Assembly: GCA_011033025.1 (NCBI GenBank)
Contig: WFMF01000369.1
Location: forward strand, 1-64,000
Source of the DNA: Beroe forskalii
Taxonomy: Eukaryota; Ctenophora; Nuda; Beroida; Beroidae
DNA length: 64,000 nt
Direction of reading: 5' to 3'
In this document: piece after piece, positions 9,280-58,560 of the stretch
Position numbering within the stretch: the stretch's first letter is position 1
Layout: each line of letters starts with the position of its first letter
The notes under the pieces: generated by a model
Seen by the model: the letters and a program-made list of their open reading frames with translations, nothing else
Databases searched by the model: none
What the model was told of the DNA's origin: nothing
Made by a program: the position numbers and the translations under genes

Positions 9280-12200
9280 ATGACACACTATGGCTGTGAT
9301 AGGGGAACTGCTCGTCAACCAGGCACTACTCATCGACCAACCAGTGGGAGGGACCACTCTGCCAGGCCAGATGATATTATCTTTAAAGATGAACGTTCTG
9401 GCAAGAGTTACAAGCGTGGTGCATTTGTAGGGAAGGTAAATTTGGTTTTAAATAACTTCAATCTGCTACAATTTGTGCAAATTATTGAATTTTGTGTTAT
9501 TCATTTTATATAATTCTTCCTACATGCAAATTTTGACCCATGTTACTATGTCAAATATTACATATCAATTATTCTACAGGGTGGTTTTGCCAAGTGTTAT
9601 GAAGTTGTTGAAATGTCCACTGGAGAAATATATGCTGCAAAAGTTGTTAGCAAATCACTCTTGAAGAAAGACCACCAAAAAGAAAAGATGTCACAAGAAA
9701 TTCGAATTCACAGGTAATTTTTTGTAGTACCTTCGTTCTTATTCATAATATATTTTAGGTAGAATACCAGTGCATAACATATATCATACATATCCTTGCC
9801 TTTCAATTACAAAATACAATTTTACATGCCTGAAAGGCATATGATTATGAACTTAGAAACATCTTAGTCTAATGATCATTATTACACAAGAATTAACCCT
9901 AGGAGTTTGAACCACAAGCACATTGTAAAGTTTTACAGCTATTTTGAGGACTCTGAAAATGTGTATATGATCTTGGAGCTCTGCCGGAAGAAGGTAACAG
10001 TCTATTCTTATGCAGCTGAGCATCAGCGTAGCTACTCTCATATTATGAGAGTCTCATAATGTGATGCTCTTAAAACTGACTGAATCAATTCCATATCACA
10101 CTGCAGCAGGCCTGAAACGATGTTATTCCACTTTCACTCATGTCAGTTCAGTCCAAAGATCACTGATAAGTTGTATCAAAATGAAAGTAGGGGCCACCCA
10201 TAAAAGACACCCACAATGTTCGACTCATCCCCCCCCCTTTTCCACAAACGTCCGCATTCCAGAAACCCCCTAAACGTCCACATTTTACTTATTATTATCG
10301 ATTTGGTCACAATTTTTGGCCCAAAATTTCACAATTTTATAGTGAAATAACCGTCAAATCAACCAAAATTTACAATTTACATAAGCTGCAGACGGCTGCA
10401 TTTGGCCAAACACCGCCCTCCCCCTACAAACGTCTGTATTGACCAGACTGTCCTTCATTGCGGAATTGTGGATGTCCTTTAGGTTTACGGATGACCCCTT
10501 ATCAATGCATCATATCATATGCCACCATTTTGTGTAAATTTATATTATGTAACCATTATTTCTTTTTGATGACAAACTTTGCATGTTATTCGGGCAGGTC
10601 ACAAGAAATACAAATGGTAACTCACCGGCTAATGTATTTCATCCTCAGTCTCTGATGGAGATGCACAAGAGGAGGAAAGCAATGACTGAACCGGAAGTGC
10701 GGTATTTAATGAAGCAAATCATTGAATCAGCCCTTCATCTCCACCAGCATAAGGTAGGAATATGAAGAACATACAGTATACACAGGCGGACAGTTATTAT
10801 TGCAGCCCCCAGCTATACACAGGCGTACAGTTATTATTGCAGCCCCCAGCTATACACAGGCGAACAGTTATTATTGCAGCCCCCAGCTATACACACCCCC
10901 CATTGATAGGGGGACGGCGGAATTTTCAGTTTGACATTTTTCCTGTATGTTATGACAAATATGACACTTTTGGACGCTTTTTGTCGCGTTTTGACACTTT
11001 TGGACGCTTTTTCCGCGTTTTTGACACTTTTGGGAGCTCTTCGTGCACACTTCAACCGAAATTGACGTTTTTGTCGCCCCCTAAAAAATGGAGGGTATAC
11101 ACAGACGGCCCCCTGACGGCCCCCTGATACGATTATGTAGAGTGATGAGAGATCACGTTGAGTCGATCATCGATGAATGAGATTCAATCGATTATCATCG
11201 ATGGCTTCCAATTATCATCATATAGTCAGATACTGCAACTTTTTACTGTGATTCGTAGATTAAAATACAATGTTATTTGTAAATGGACATAATGATATAC
11301 TCGTTGACAAGTGCTCTTTTGGCAGGTTATTCACAGGGATTTGAAGCTAGGAAACCTCTTCATTAATGACAGCATGGAGGTGAAGCTTGGAGACTTTGGG
11401 TTGGCTACTAAAGTGGATTTCCAGGGGGAAAGAAAGAGGACACTCTGTGGAACACCCAACTACATAGCCCCTGAGGTTGGGAGATTGTTAATAAACTAAT
11501 ATCACCCAACTACCTAACTACATAGCCCCTAAGGTTGGGAGATTGTTAATTAAGTAATAACACCCAACTATGTATAGCCCCTGAGGTAGGGAGATTGTTA
11601 ATATCAGACCTCAAGCAAGGGAAGAGGGTGTACCCCTATGGATATCTTTCTCTTTCGATTTTGCTTCTAAGCTTCCCGTGATAAATGATAAGTTTTCCAT
11701 TACATCTGATAATCTAAGGCTTTTGCAGGTATTGAAGAAAGAAGGACACAGCTACGAGGTTGACATGTGGAGTATTGGGTGTATCATGTATACGCTTCTT
11801 GTTGGCAAGCCACCCTTCGAGACCACCTCCCTAAAAGACACTTACAGCAAGATAAAGAAGAACGAGTACTACATCCCACCTAAGATTTCAAACAATGCTC
11901 AGATCCTTATTGTCAAGCTGCTCAGACCTGACCCTTCTAAGCGACCTTCCGCGGAGAAATGCCTGACTGAGGACTTCTTTACTCAAGGTACACAGTCGTA
12001 TGAAGTGAAGTAGAATAGTTGATGAAATACATAACTGAATATTTCTGCTAGATGCTAGTTGTTCGAGAAGTTTGAACTGTTAAACTTAAAGGTTTGTCTT
12101 TGAATGTGATTGGTTGGCTGTAAAAAGGAGTCTGAATTTCCGATCTGGTGTGTAGAATCTGGACTTAATCAACCTTACTCGTCCTATTTCTGATACAGCT

Positions 12201-12873
12201 CCGATCTGTTTCAGGGTACACGCCACAGAGCTTGCCAGCCTCCTGTCTCATGATGCCTCCCCACTTCGACAACAAGATCTCCCAGCAGTTAGACATCCCG
12301 CCTAGACGACCTCTGTCTGCCATCAACCACAACGGAGCCGAGATCAGGTGAGTGTAACACACACAGGACTGATGGTTATTCATAGAAATAAGTAATTGTA
12401 GATTGCTCATTATTACTCAGAATATGAGATTTTGTGTATGAGTAACATCCATACTCAACATCAATCATATTTTACCTGTTTCGTCCTGTGGGGGCATTGT
12501 ACGACACTACCCTCGTATTGTGTTAAAATGCCCTATTCGTAACGTACGTTTCCGGTTTTTCTTAATCCTTTTATCGCCTCCATTCCCCCTTACAATGAAA
12601 TATAATGACAGGTCCACTTCCGTACTGTGGTCTGTGGTTTGTAGATTAAATTAAATAATCATAGAGACAATTCAATGAAACGTTATTATCATGATCTAGA
12701 ATGTGTTATTGATCACGCGATTTGCATATCCCAAAGGTCGCGTGACGGGGCAGCAGAAAACAAGGCTCACAACACACTGGAGGTGGCTACTCTGAACCTT
12801 GTAGACTTGAAGCAGCAGCTCGGTAGAGTGGTTGCTAGGAAGGCAAACCCTCTCTGGAACGCCGACTTAGAGG
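9280..12873 (+). CDS. PLK1: Polo-like kinase, 3' end missing
   Basis: Serine/threonine kinase of the Polo family, which drives mitotic entry, centrosome maturation and cytokinesis. Exons: 9280-9435, 9580-9713, 9903-9993, 10649-10753, 11326-11475, 11729-11987, 12215-12347, 12737-12873, all with GT-AG borders and consistent phases. The glycine loop ([11 protein letters not shown]) crosses the first intron; AAKVV holds the ATP lysine; HRDLKLGNL is the catalytic loop; DFGLA and [10 protein letters not shown] are the activation segment. Exon 7 ([11 protein letters not shown]) matches the PLK linker just after the kinase. The family normally continues into two polo boxes; none is found before the gap at 13554, so the gene is cut short by assembly. 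ATG lies one base after an AG (9277-9278). PLK1 rather than PLK2/3 is likely but not proved. Confidence 0.93.
10775..10895 (+). repeat. 36-bp tandem repeat in PLK intron
   Basis: Three copies of a unit with ACAGTTATTATTGCAGCC and CCAGCTATACACAGG. Each unit contains TTATTGCAG, which resembles a splice acceptor, but it does not copy exon sequence. Confidence 0.8.
11455..11600 (+). repeat. Triplicated exon 5 donor junction of PLK
   Basis: The end of exon 5 and its donor (ATAGCCCCTGAG|GTTGGG, border at 11475-11476) is repeated at about 11521 and 11574 with spacing of 58 and about 52 bp. The copies keep the AGGTTGGG or AGGTAGGG donor, so three similar 5' splice sites stand in a row. Confidence 0.85.
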
Positions 12874-13480
12874 GTATGTTTTTTTTTGTTTTTTGTACAA
12901 CGAGCTCCCGAAGTCCTCATACGCTTTTTAGCACTGTGAGGGTATGTTTAAGGGTATGTTTACTATTGGACGGTATGTTTACTATTCGGGTTTAATTGAC
13001 TTAGAGGGTGTTTTAAATGTCAAGGTAGAGGGATGTCGAGGTAAAGTGATGTCAAGTTGGAGAGATTTCATGATAGCATGCTATCAAGGTAGAATAATGT
13101 CTGAAAGACTGGTCACTGGTGTCAAGGTAGAGCGGTGCCGAGTTACAGCGATGTAAAGTTGAAGTGATGTCTAGGTAAACTGATGTCAAGGTAAAGTGGT
13201 GTCTAGGTAGACTGATGTCAAGGTAGACTGATTTCAAGGTAGACTGATGTCAAGGTAGACAGATGTCAAGGTAGATGTCAATGAAAAGAATCATTTAAAG
13301 ACTGATGTCAAGGGGATGGGTTAAGGTAGACTGGTTCAAGGTAGCTATTCAAGTAGAAGATTAAATGTTTCAAGGGATTGGGGTTTAGGGAGAATTGGGC
13401 CCGGGAGATGATGTCAATAGATGTGTCAAGTGTGCAATTCCCCAGGTAAAGGTGATGGGGCCCCTGTCAAGGAGACTGGG
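12870..13480 (+). repeat. Degenerate minisatellite after PLK exon 8
   Basis: Starts with repeats of the exon 8 donor words (GAGGGTATGTTT at 12871, 12938-12951 and 12972; GACTTAGAGGGT again near 12999). It then becomes a 13-27 bp repeat of GTCAAGGTAGACTGAT up to the gap. Array collapse here probably caused the gap. Confidence 0.75.
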
Positions 13481-57811: not shown

Positions 57812-58440
57812 TGCTAGAGAGATGAGAGGTTAGCATGCGCTTAAACAGCCCTCAGGGAGGGGTAGAAGCCTGATCCCTATCAAATACTATCGAATCAGTT
57901 CTCATCCAAAACCGATACGGAATTTGGAAATAGAGCTGAGTTATTGAAACTAATTAACGATATATTGCGTTGTTGATTTTGTTTATCATCAGATCTTCGA
58001 TGACAATGGACTTCATCAATTCTACGGAGAGTAGGACAGTAGGTAGGTATTTGAAATTTGAAGCAAATCACTACTAACGGTAACATGTAAAAACAAATAC
58101 CTATCGATGAAATTTAAAAACATAAATTGAAGGGATAGTAAACTGTAAAAAGTAGCAAAAAACATATTATAAATAACTTTATAGCTAAGCTCTTTAAATA
58201 CGTTTTTACAATTAGCAGAATAAAAACATTCAACTTCTGTTTAAAAATAGCGCCTTCGAAATTCTCTCATTCCTCGTCTTCATTTTCGCATCAATGAAAA
58301 TAACCTTATGAATAAGCGAAAGCTTTACAACACTTAATAAATAAAGTTCAGGTGTTGTAAAGCAACAATAGCACGATATACTCCAGCTCTAAATTCTGAC
58401 GGGTGCACCACAGGCCACTTTTAGCACTTTGATCCCCTCT
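57812..58440. other. Spacer between zinc-finger and Aurora genes
   Basis: AT-rich, no gene recognised; contains the acceptor just before the Aurora ATG. Confidence 0.5.
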
Positions 58441-58560
58441 TTTCCCCCTCCTTTCAAGTGGGGTACCACTCTTACCACTCCCCTCCTTCTCTGCCTCATC
58501 TCCTTTCAAGTGGGTTCACCACTCTTACCACTCCCCTCCTTCTCTGTCTCATCTCCCCTC
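58440..58560 (-). repeat. Duplicated 3' coding end of the zinc-finger gene
   Basis: Two units of about 60 bp with GAGAAGGAGGGGAGTGGTAAGAGTGG (split here as GAGAAGGAGGGGAGTG and GTAAGAGTGG) and CCCACTTGAAAGG, covering the last codons and stop at 58506. GAGTG|GTAAGAG is also a good 5' splice site. Confidence 0.8.

Follow-up and report, generated by a model that had tools for sequence, protein, structure and literature searches.

Copied exon ends and coding ends in the window

The window analysed here is a 64,000-nucleotide stretch of the Beroe forskalii genome (assembly GCA_011033025.1, contig WFMF01000369.1, positions 1 to 64,000), in which genes for PLK, a kanadaptin-like protein, adrenodoxin, eIF2B-gamma, a cysteine protease and Aurora are accompanied by short tandem arrays. 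The assembly comprises 216 Mb and the host sequence has a GC content of about 41%. A preliminary description had named twelve arrays as holding a copied splice site or gene end together with adjoining exon bases. When these were re-read with TRF and on the coding strand, five of the twelve were found to contain a splice junction copied along with exon bases and two a copied coding end (the adrenodoxin stop, and a stop or donor in the protease gene), while one was wrong (Aurora 57099) and four were ambiguous (46301, 48054, 49474 and 58448). The core observation is real, yet it was overstated.

11326..11475, plus strand: PLK exon up to its first donor (IAPE followed by GTTGGG); structure alignment
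11454..11603, plus strand: array at the PLK donor with three copied junctions, period 58, 2.7 copies; TRF, reading
22363..22444, minus strand: donor array of the kanadaptin-like gene, period 27, 3 copies; TRF, junction by gene finder only
23644..24115, minus strand: acceptor array of the kanadaptin-like gene, period 50, 9.6 copies, 29 exon bases; TRF, reading, gene finder
42232..43049, minus strand: array holding the adrenodoxin C-terminus with its stop codon, period 68, 12 copies; TRF, alignment
43462..43571, minus strand: duplicated adrenodoxin acceptor with about 44 exon bases, two copies at a lag of 59; duplication scan, alignment
46301..46521, minus strand: 5' array of eIF2B-gamma, period 52; TRF, gene finder
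48054..48678, minus strand: array, period 58, 11 copies, ending 5 nt before a predicted ATG; TRF, gene finder
49474..49640, minus strand: two degenerate exon-end copies spaced by about 135 bp, only the first with its donor; own reading
51609..51761, plus strand: coding end of the cysteine protease gene, period 39, 3.9 copies; TRF, peptidase domain (Pfam)
56364..56541, minus strand: array at an Aurora donor with five exon-end copies, period 39-44; TRF, reading
57099..57275, minus strand: Aurora intron array adjoining the acceptor, no exon bases; TRF, reading
58448..58556, minus strand: array at an ORF end, period 53, 2.1 copies, stop or donor; TRF, gene finder

With the PLK exon spliced to 11729, 137 of 137 residues align to PLK1 with no gap. 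Two PLK genes lie 59 kb apart on the same contig and carry three and two units respectively, with a gap of exactly one unit. The first donor is intact in both genes, the GT has been lost from the last copy in the second, and the array is kept in both despite diverged introns. The two copies may be alleles or paralogues, and the near-duplicate segment could be an unmerged haplotype. The Aurora junction between HDDK and VDIW is ungapped in alignment to a solved structure. The adrenodoxin acceptor junction also aligns to a solved structure; this duplication is absent from the TRF list and was found by a tandem-duplication scan. In the kanadaptin-like gene, the donor junction at 22363 was called by the gene finder in one of two runs on collapsed sequence, and the exon at the acceptor array continues into an FHA domain (Pfam).

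At the adrenodoxin coding end the alignment reaches residue 104 of 110 and supports the stop codon reading; the gene finder's donor just before this array was wrong. In the protease array the open frame stops, yet the gene finder sets a donor at 51614, and the array perhaps copies the stop, or else this donor. No junction is copied at Aurora 57099, where a single base, the G of AG, separates the array from the exon at 57097; the AG is left uncopied, and the other copies read TTCAC or TTAAC, not TTCAG. The gene finder's junction there used a different acceptor, to which the structure alignment gives no support. The eIF2B-gamma array may cross an acceptor or a start ATG, with a junction called by the finder in one of two runs there and in both at 58448. 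No Pfam family matched the ORF at 58448, and no Pfam domain was found in the one nearby ORF tested at 48054.

The periods had been put at 30-68 bp, of which the upper limit holds and the lower does not (measured, 27-68). The statement that few arrays lack a junction was false: TRF results merge to 39 arrays in the window, and only six of them are among the seven confirmed or supported cases. The arrays are not a product of chance, since the duplication scan returned 359 segments in 234 kb and none in one shuffled control.

Recurrence outside the window and known systems

The pattern recurs outside the window in LTV1 (two arrays), in iPGM and at the stop codon of dihydroxyacetone kinase, and locus L013 probably carries a junction array as well. 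The LTV1 acceptor junction aligns to a solved structure, and the iPGM junction is continuous and ungapped in a structure alignment when the exon-proximal copy is used. TRF gave periods of 36-55 for iPGM and the LTV1 donor, while the period of 145 at the LTV1 acceptor is a multiple of a variable unit of about 70.

Repeats of this kind, named 'mirage' minisatellites, have already been published for amphioxus (lancelet) genes (PMC3087553). As described there, they share with the present arrays units of tens of bases that join exon bases to a 5' or 3' splice site and are repeated into the intron, and a reading frame served by the exon-proximal copy. Unit number varies as well, between haplotypes in the mirages and here between two PLK copies that may be alleles or paralogues. 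An exon-intron boundary reiterated with exon bases was found here in PLK, the kanadaptin acceptor, adrenodoxin, Aurora, LTV1 (twice) and iPGM; both boundaries are represented, and the periods of the splice cases in the window (27-58) lie within the mirage range of about 10-160 bp. Unlike the mirage papers, which treat single genes, this small single-genome sample holds such repeats in several genes within 234 kb and adds a stop-codon, or coding-end, form. Ordinary intronic and intergenic minisatellites, which make up most arrays in the 234 kb, are similar in unit size, copy number and divergence, but the units described here hold coding bases with a splice site or stop codon.

The preliminary description had also pointed to a model, perhaps related, in which introns are gained when AGGT segments are duplicated in tandem. 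In the Rogers model an exon segment containing AGGT is reportedly duplicated in this way in the genome, and both ends of the new intron lie within the copied stretch; splice signals are copied by tandem duplication there as they are here. Intron gain is rejected for the present arrays because the partner splice site lies beyond the array: the acceptor stands before 11729 in PLK and before 56250 in Aurora, and iPGM, adrenodoxin and LTV1 show the same arrangement. Unlike in that model, the intron was already present in the cases checked and was lengthened by the array.

Junction crossings against a null expectation

Crossings were compared with a null in which exon-internal frameshifts are purged and intron lengths are given, covering 55 introns (18 in the window, 37 outside). 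Because the gene finder erred on collapsed sequence, reading the junctions of iPGM and L013 as exon or intron and fusing neighbouring genes, the introns were hand-picked and array lengths rounded. Several introns come from genes with no Pfam match above the cut-off (L018, L020, L022, L025, L013 and one beside 58509-59219). Left out of both sides of the count were the second PLK copy, arrays whose period is below 20, and those lying in introns that distrusted models predict (including 10777, 10962, 13017, 32319, 36444, 40854, 48882, 68253-77580, L013 2594 and L015 4860). The eIF2B-gamma array at 46301, those at 48054, 49474 and 58448, and L025 242 were also excluded, and junctions called by the finder at L022 310-441 (period 66) and L021 9684 (period 10) were left uncounted.

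On this basis, 9 of the 21 arrays in introns span a junction, where intron lengths predict 3.4 (P 0.002), and a lenient count gives 11 of 21 against 3.7 (P 0.0002). The array rate itself climbs 1.65-fold from intron to exon GC (95% 1.33-2.12; 48 arrays), although the trend is not monotone and has its maximum at 0.44-0.50. With GC factors of 1.3-1.65 the excess of 9 of 21 remains at P 0.01-0.03. When only structure-aligned junctions and the kanadaptin acceptor are counted, 7 of 21 cross (P 0.03 uncorrected, 0.09-0.19 corrected). Much of the excess comes from the window, which gave rise to the claim. In the remaining sequence, 4 of 13 arrays cross against 1.4 expected (P 0.04), or 3 of 13 without one gene that lacks a homologue (P 0.16), and the GC-linked array rate lowers this excess further; depending on the corrections, 1.4-2.1 crossings are expected and P is 0.04-0.37. 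Stop codons also look over-hit, at 2-3 of about 12 by our own tally against 0.13-0.22 expected (P 0.0004-0.02).

It is rather doubtful that duplications concentrate at coding edges, both junctions and stop codons, to a degree that frame purging, intron length and GC content fail to explain. If they did, coding DNA or its edges would be a duplication hot spot, and a lancelet curiosity would become a factor shaping the length of introns and gene ends in general. No genome-wide junction bias of tandem arrays was found in the literature searched. The null, simple as it is (frame filter, intron length, GC), is a baseline that any claim of splice-linked duplication must be measured against.

Probable survival at coding edges and the rival explanations

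We consider it probable that the duplications are common, are favoured by GC, and persist if they span a single coding edge or preserve the frame. Tandem copies of short segments (about 20-150 bp) would form often in this genome, more so in GC-rich DNA; inside exons most would shift the frame and be lost, except where the period is divisible by three and the protein tolerates the added residues. A duplication over exactly one coding edge (donor, acceptor or stop codon) would be nearly neutral; the exon-proximal copy would keep the protein whole, while further copies would land in the intron or 3' flank, free to multiply into a minisatellite and then decay. Near-neutrality, the order of these events and use of the exon-proximal site in RNA are inferred. 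In-frame exonic arrays occur in adrenodoxin (period 33), the kanadaptin-like gene (period 18) and the dihydroxyacetone kinase gene (period 21), but the argument from them is partly circular because exon calls require open frames. Divergence per site in distal copies, counted without Aurora (one copy found) and dihydroxyacetone kinase, is 0.060 for exon-derived and 0.076 for intron-derived bases at the LTV1 donor, 0.054 and 0.119 in kanadaptin, 0.098 and 0.059 in iPGM, and 0.045 and 0.081 at the LTV1 acceptor. Of the two options in the proposal, that splice junctions retain duplications or that they seed them, retention is supported and seeding is not needed. Splicing is not required, since the same structure stands at stop codons (adrenodoxin, dihydroxyacetone kinase and perhaps the protease).

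That junctions or coding DNA themselves seed duplications as hot spots, for example through transcription- or splicing-linked breaks with template switching, appears unlikely. The crossing excess in the main and lenient counts, which persists in the former after GC correction, speaks for it, as opposed to the weaker figures outside the window, the conservative count once corrected, and the hits on stop codons, which a splicing-linked process would not predict. Several results count against survival alone: the crossing excess, the over-hit stop codons and the non-monotone GC trend, and also the differences between copies, of which 17 of 19 in the adrenodoxin stop array lie at third codon positions and which are unevenly spread in iPGM (2, 12, 16) and the LTV1 acceptor (3, 1, 9). 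In iPGM, the frame also remains open on read-through across about the first 15 units. An assembly artefact, in which repeats that were collapsed or stuttered happened to fall at exon ends, is a very improbable reading; the assembly has N gaps as well as the near-duplicate segment, but copies inside arrays differ by several percent and the array is shared by two PLK genes whose introns have diverged.

It is also quite improbable that the extra sites are used, with the arrays serving as a store of micro-exons or alternative exon ends that alter protein length or expression. Donor scoring, which leaves out the LTV1 donor and the kanadaptin acceptor, places distal above exon-proximal donors in PLK (5.6 vs 5.0) and Aurora (6.9 vs 5.7), and in iPGM the two are equal at 6.6; in the kanadaptin-like gene the exon-proximal donor is the strongest (6.9 vs 6.3). 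Distal use would lead to a stop codon in PLK, in Aurora (after ...RRLVGGG) and, by our own reading, at the LTV1 donor, and RT-PCR in amphioxus gave regular splicing (PMC3087553). No codon-position constraint was seen in the LTV1 donor (9, 10, 12) or kanadaptin (4, 4, 3) copies. Consistent with some use, the LTV1 units bear an acceptor and a donor-like GTAACT, and the 36-bp iPGM units are in frame. These arrays are also natural tests of splice-site choice, with the donor GTGAGG retained in 16 of 18 matched iPGM copies and at least 14 near-identical acceptors in LTV1.

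Arrays carrying splice sites and stop codons

The genome assembly comprises 216 Mb in 1134 contigs, with the window at C435:1-64000. A tandem-repeat search (TRF) of the window gave 63 rows, merged into 39 arrays, and a small gene finder, self-trained on the sequence, was run over 234 kb (the window, the adjoining 40 kb and 13 stretches of 10 kb from elsewhere). Each named array was read on its own coding strand. The identities of PLK, Aurora, adrenodoxin, iPGM, LTV1, dihydroxyacetone kinase and the papain-type protease are backed by Pfam and PDB searches, while 'kanadaptin' and 'eIF2B-gamma' are names from the preliminary description, whose backing here is limited to a match to FHA and one to an eIF2B-type hexapeptide, respectively. 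Donor, acceptor and coding-end forms (the last with a copied stop codon) recur outside the window.

Arrays with copied coding edges

Window, PLK, donor (coding-strand reading): every unit with ...CACCCAACTACATAGCCCCTGAG|GTTGGG or a variant
Window, Aurora, donor (coding-strand reading): exon end GATGA(C/G)AA(G/T)|GT, five copies
Window, kanadaptin-like gene, donor: 27-bp unit, three copies, the first CAG|GTAAGA
Window, kanadaptin-like gene, acceptor: 50 bp, 9.6 copies, unit with CCTTCAG and 29 exon bases
Window, adrenodoxin, acceptor: two copies, about 44 exon bases
Window, adrenodoxin, coding end: 68 bp, 12 copies, C-terminus with TGA
Window, protease, coding end: 39 bp, TAG closing an open frame; the gene finder favours a donor instead
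L024, LTV1 (PF04180, E 4.5e-36 in Pfam), acceptor: 14 to 16 recognisable copies of TCTCCTCAG|ATGTACAAGGAATACGACCACCTTGG
L024, LTV1, donor: 13.7 copies, 55-bp unit of 43 exon and 12 intron bases
L014, iPGM (PF06415), donor: period 36, 24.4 copies
L019, dihydroxyacetone kinase (PF02733, PF02734), coding end: 43-bp units, 6.1 copies, C-terminus with TAA
L013, gene without a Pfam match: probable acceptor array
L013, opposite side of that gene: array starting at the donor, about 4 exon bases
L022: array with about 2 exon bases

Junction-containing minisatellites had been claimed in at least eight genes of the window. Such structures exist in several of them, but they are of a known kind, as the available extracts of PMC3087553 and PMC3902484 describe amphioxus minisatellites whose units span an exon-intron boundary ('mirages'). 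In those extracts, neither the stop-codon form nor a null model with a frame filter was found. The Aurora array at 57099 is not a copied junction, its units holding neither the acceptor AG nor exon bases; this intronic array (57099-57275) has a 31-bp unit based on a near-palindrome (GACATCATGATGTC).

The copy that keeps the protein

When exons are joined at the exon-proximal copy, the products align to solved structures (PDB). PLK aligns over 137/137 residues with zero gaps, the Aurora (HDDK|VDIW) and iPGM (HTCNR|VPF) junctions are ungapped, and adrenodoxin aligns over residues 5-104 of 110 with a single 2-residue gap away from the junction. The LTV1 alignment extends to YKEYDHL at the acceptor array, and its donor-array junction falls in a gapped, poorly conserved stretch. 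If reading continues beyond the first donor, it runs into a stop in PLK, Aurora and, by manual reading, LTV1. In iPGM the frame stays open for about the first 15 units, so that use of a distal donor would add 12-residue repeats.

Splice-site scores do not consistently favour the exon-proximal donor, which scores below the last donor in PLK (5.0 against 5.6) and Aurora (5.7 against 6.9), equals it in iPGM and is strongest in kanadaptin (6.9 against 6.3). We therefore infer that the choice would be decided by position or by removal of mis-spliced RNA. Every unit of the LTV1 acceptor array (L024 522-1602) has 25 exon bases followed by a donor-like CTTG|GTAACT, and each could thus serve as a micro-exon.

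Junctions and the coding edge

The null model assumes that duplications of length p are spread evenly and that only those within an intron or across one junction survive, giving a crossing share of about 2p/(L+p). For the test, 55 introns were picked by hand, and 21 arrays with periods of at least 20, intronic or at junctions, were assigned to these; the borderline L013 donor-side and L022 cases were scored as non-crossing in this strict test. In total 9/21 arrays cross a junction against 3.4 expected (P 0.002), with 5/8 against 1.95 in the window (P 0.02) and 4/13 against 1.4 outside it (P 0.04). The outside figures carry more weight, since the window was chosen because the pattern was noticed there; without the L013 case they fall to 3/13 (P 0.16 uncorrected, up to 0.37). 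Base composition could account for part of the excess. Noncoding arrays favour GC-rich DNA: between the GC of introns (0.40) and that of exons (0.525) their rate rises 1.65-fold (1.33-2.12; 48 arrays), or 1.55-fold (40 arrays) excluding one satellite family, although it peaks at GC 0.44-0.50. Applying a factor of 1.3 or 1.65 gives a total P of 0.01 or 0.03, and restriction to structure-aligned junctions plus the kanadaptin acceptor leaves 7/21 (P 0.03 uncorrected, 0.09-0.19 corrected). An excess of junction crossings over the null is possible, not established. Of the proposal that duplication is seeded at or retained around splice junctions, the retention part is supported and the seeding part is not required; outside the window the excess has P 0.04-0.37, depending on the corrections.

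Our own tally gives about 12 gene ends, and arrays sit at 2 or 3 of them where 0.13-0.22 would be expected (P 0.0004-0.02); the chosen window contributes one or two of those cases. Because stop codons show the same structure as junctions, the common factor is suggested to be the edge of the coding sequence rather than the spliceosome. A copy laid down beyond that edge would cost little; the identical event one unit further in would break the protein. In homology-supported genes, all placeable arrays with coding bases cross one edge or are exonic and have a period that is a multiple of three (adrenodoxin 33, dihydroxyacetone kinase 21, kanadaptin-like gene 18), a pattern that is partly circular because exon calls rely on open frames.

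Turnover and other repeats

Window segments 22-995 and 6924-13344 recur at C435:62803-78665 (window end, L009 and L010) with 73-97% identity, a pair explained either by segmental duplication or by haplotypes left unmerged. The second PLK gene, located there, is nearly identical in its exons but has diverged in the intron, and its array is shorter by one 58-bp unit. Both genes keep an intact first donor, and the last copy in the second gene has lost its GT. Across distal copies of four arrays, divergence per site is 0.045-0.098 for exon-derived and 0.059-0.119 for intron-derived bases. Differences by codon position are even in the LTV1 donor (9, 10, 12) and kanadaptin (4, 4, 3) arrays and uneven in the iPGM (2, 12, 16) and LTV1 acceptor (3, 1, 9) arrays. 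The adrenodoxin stop-array copies (42232-43049) sit past the stop codon, yet 17/19 differences from the functional copy fall on third positions (1, 1, 17); one guess is that the array grew from the functional end.

Arrays at 13017-13275, 20885-21415 and 53247-53353, and in the sampled stretches L010, L014, L016, L020 and L023, have a common GGTGTCAAGG / TGACACC word and, on that likeness, apparently form one dispersed satellite family. A 75-bp array (37243-37936, 9.3 copies) lies in an open frame with an acidic repeat (NAILIQDEDEE...), where the gene finder calls an exon on the opposite strand. A 1035-codon open frame (28194-31298) resembles a non-LTR retroelement. Genome-wide, many protein-kinase domains lie in a single uninterrupted frame, with several 325-codon open frames on C692, C359 and C1106, which suggests expanded intronless kinases.
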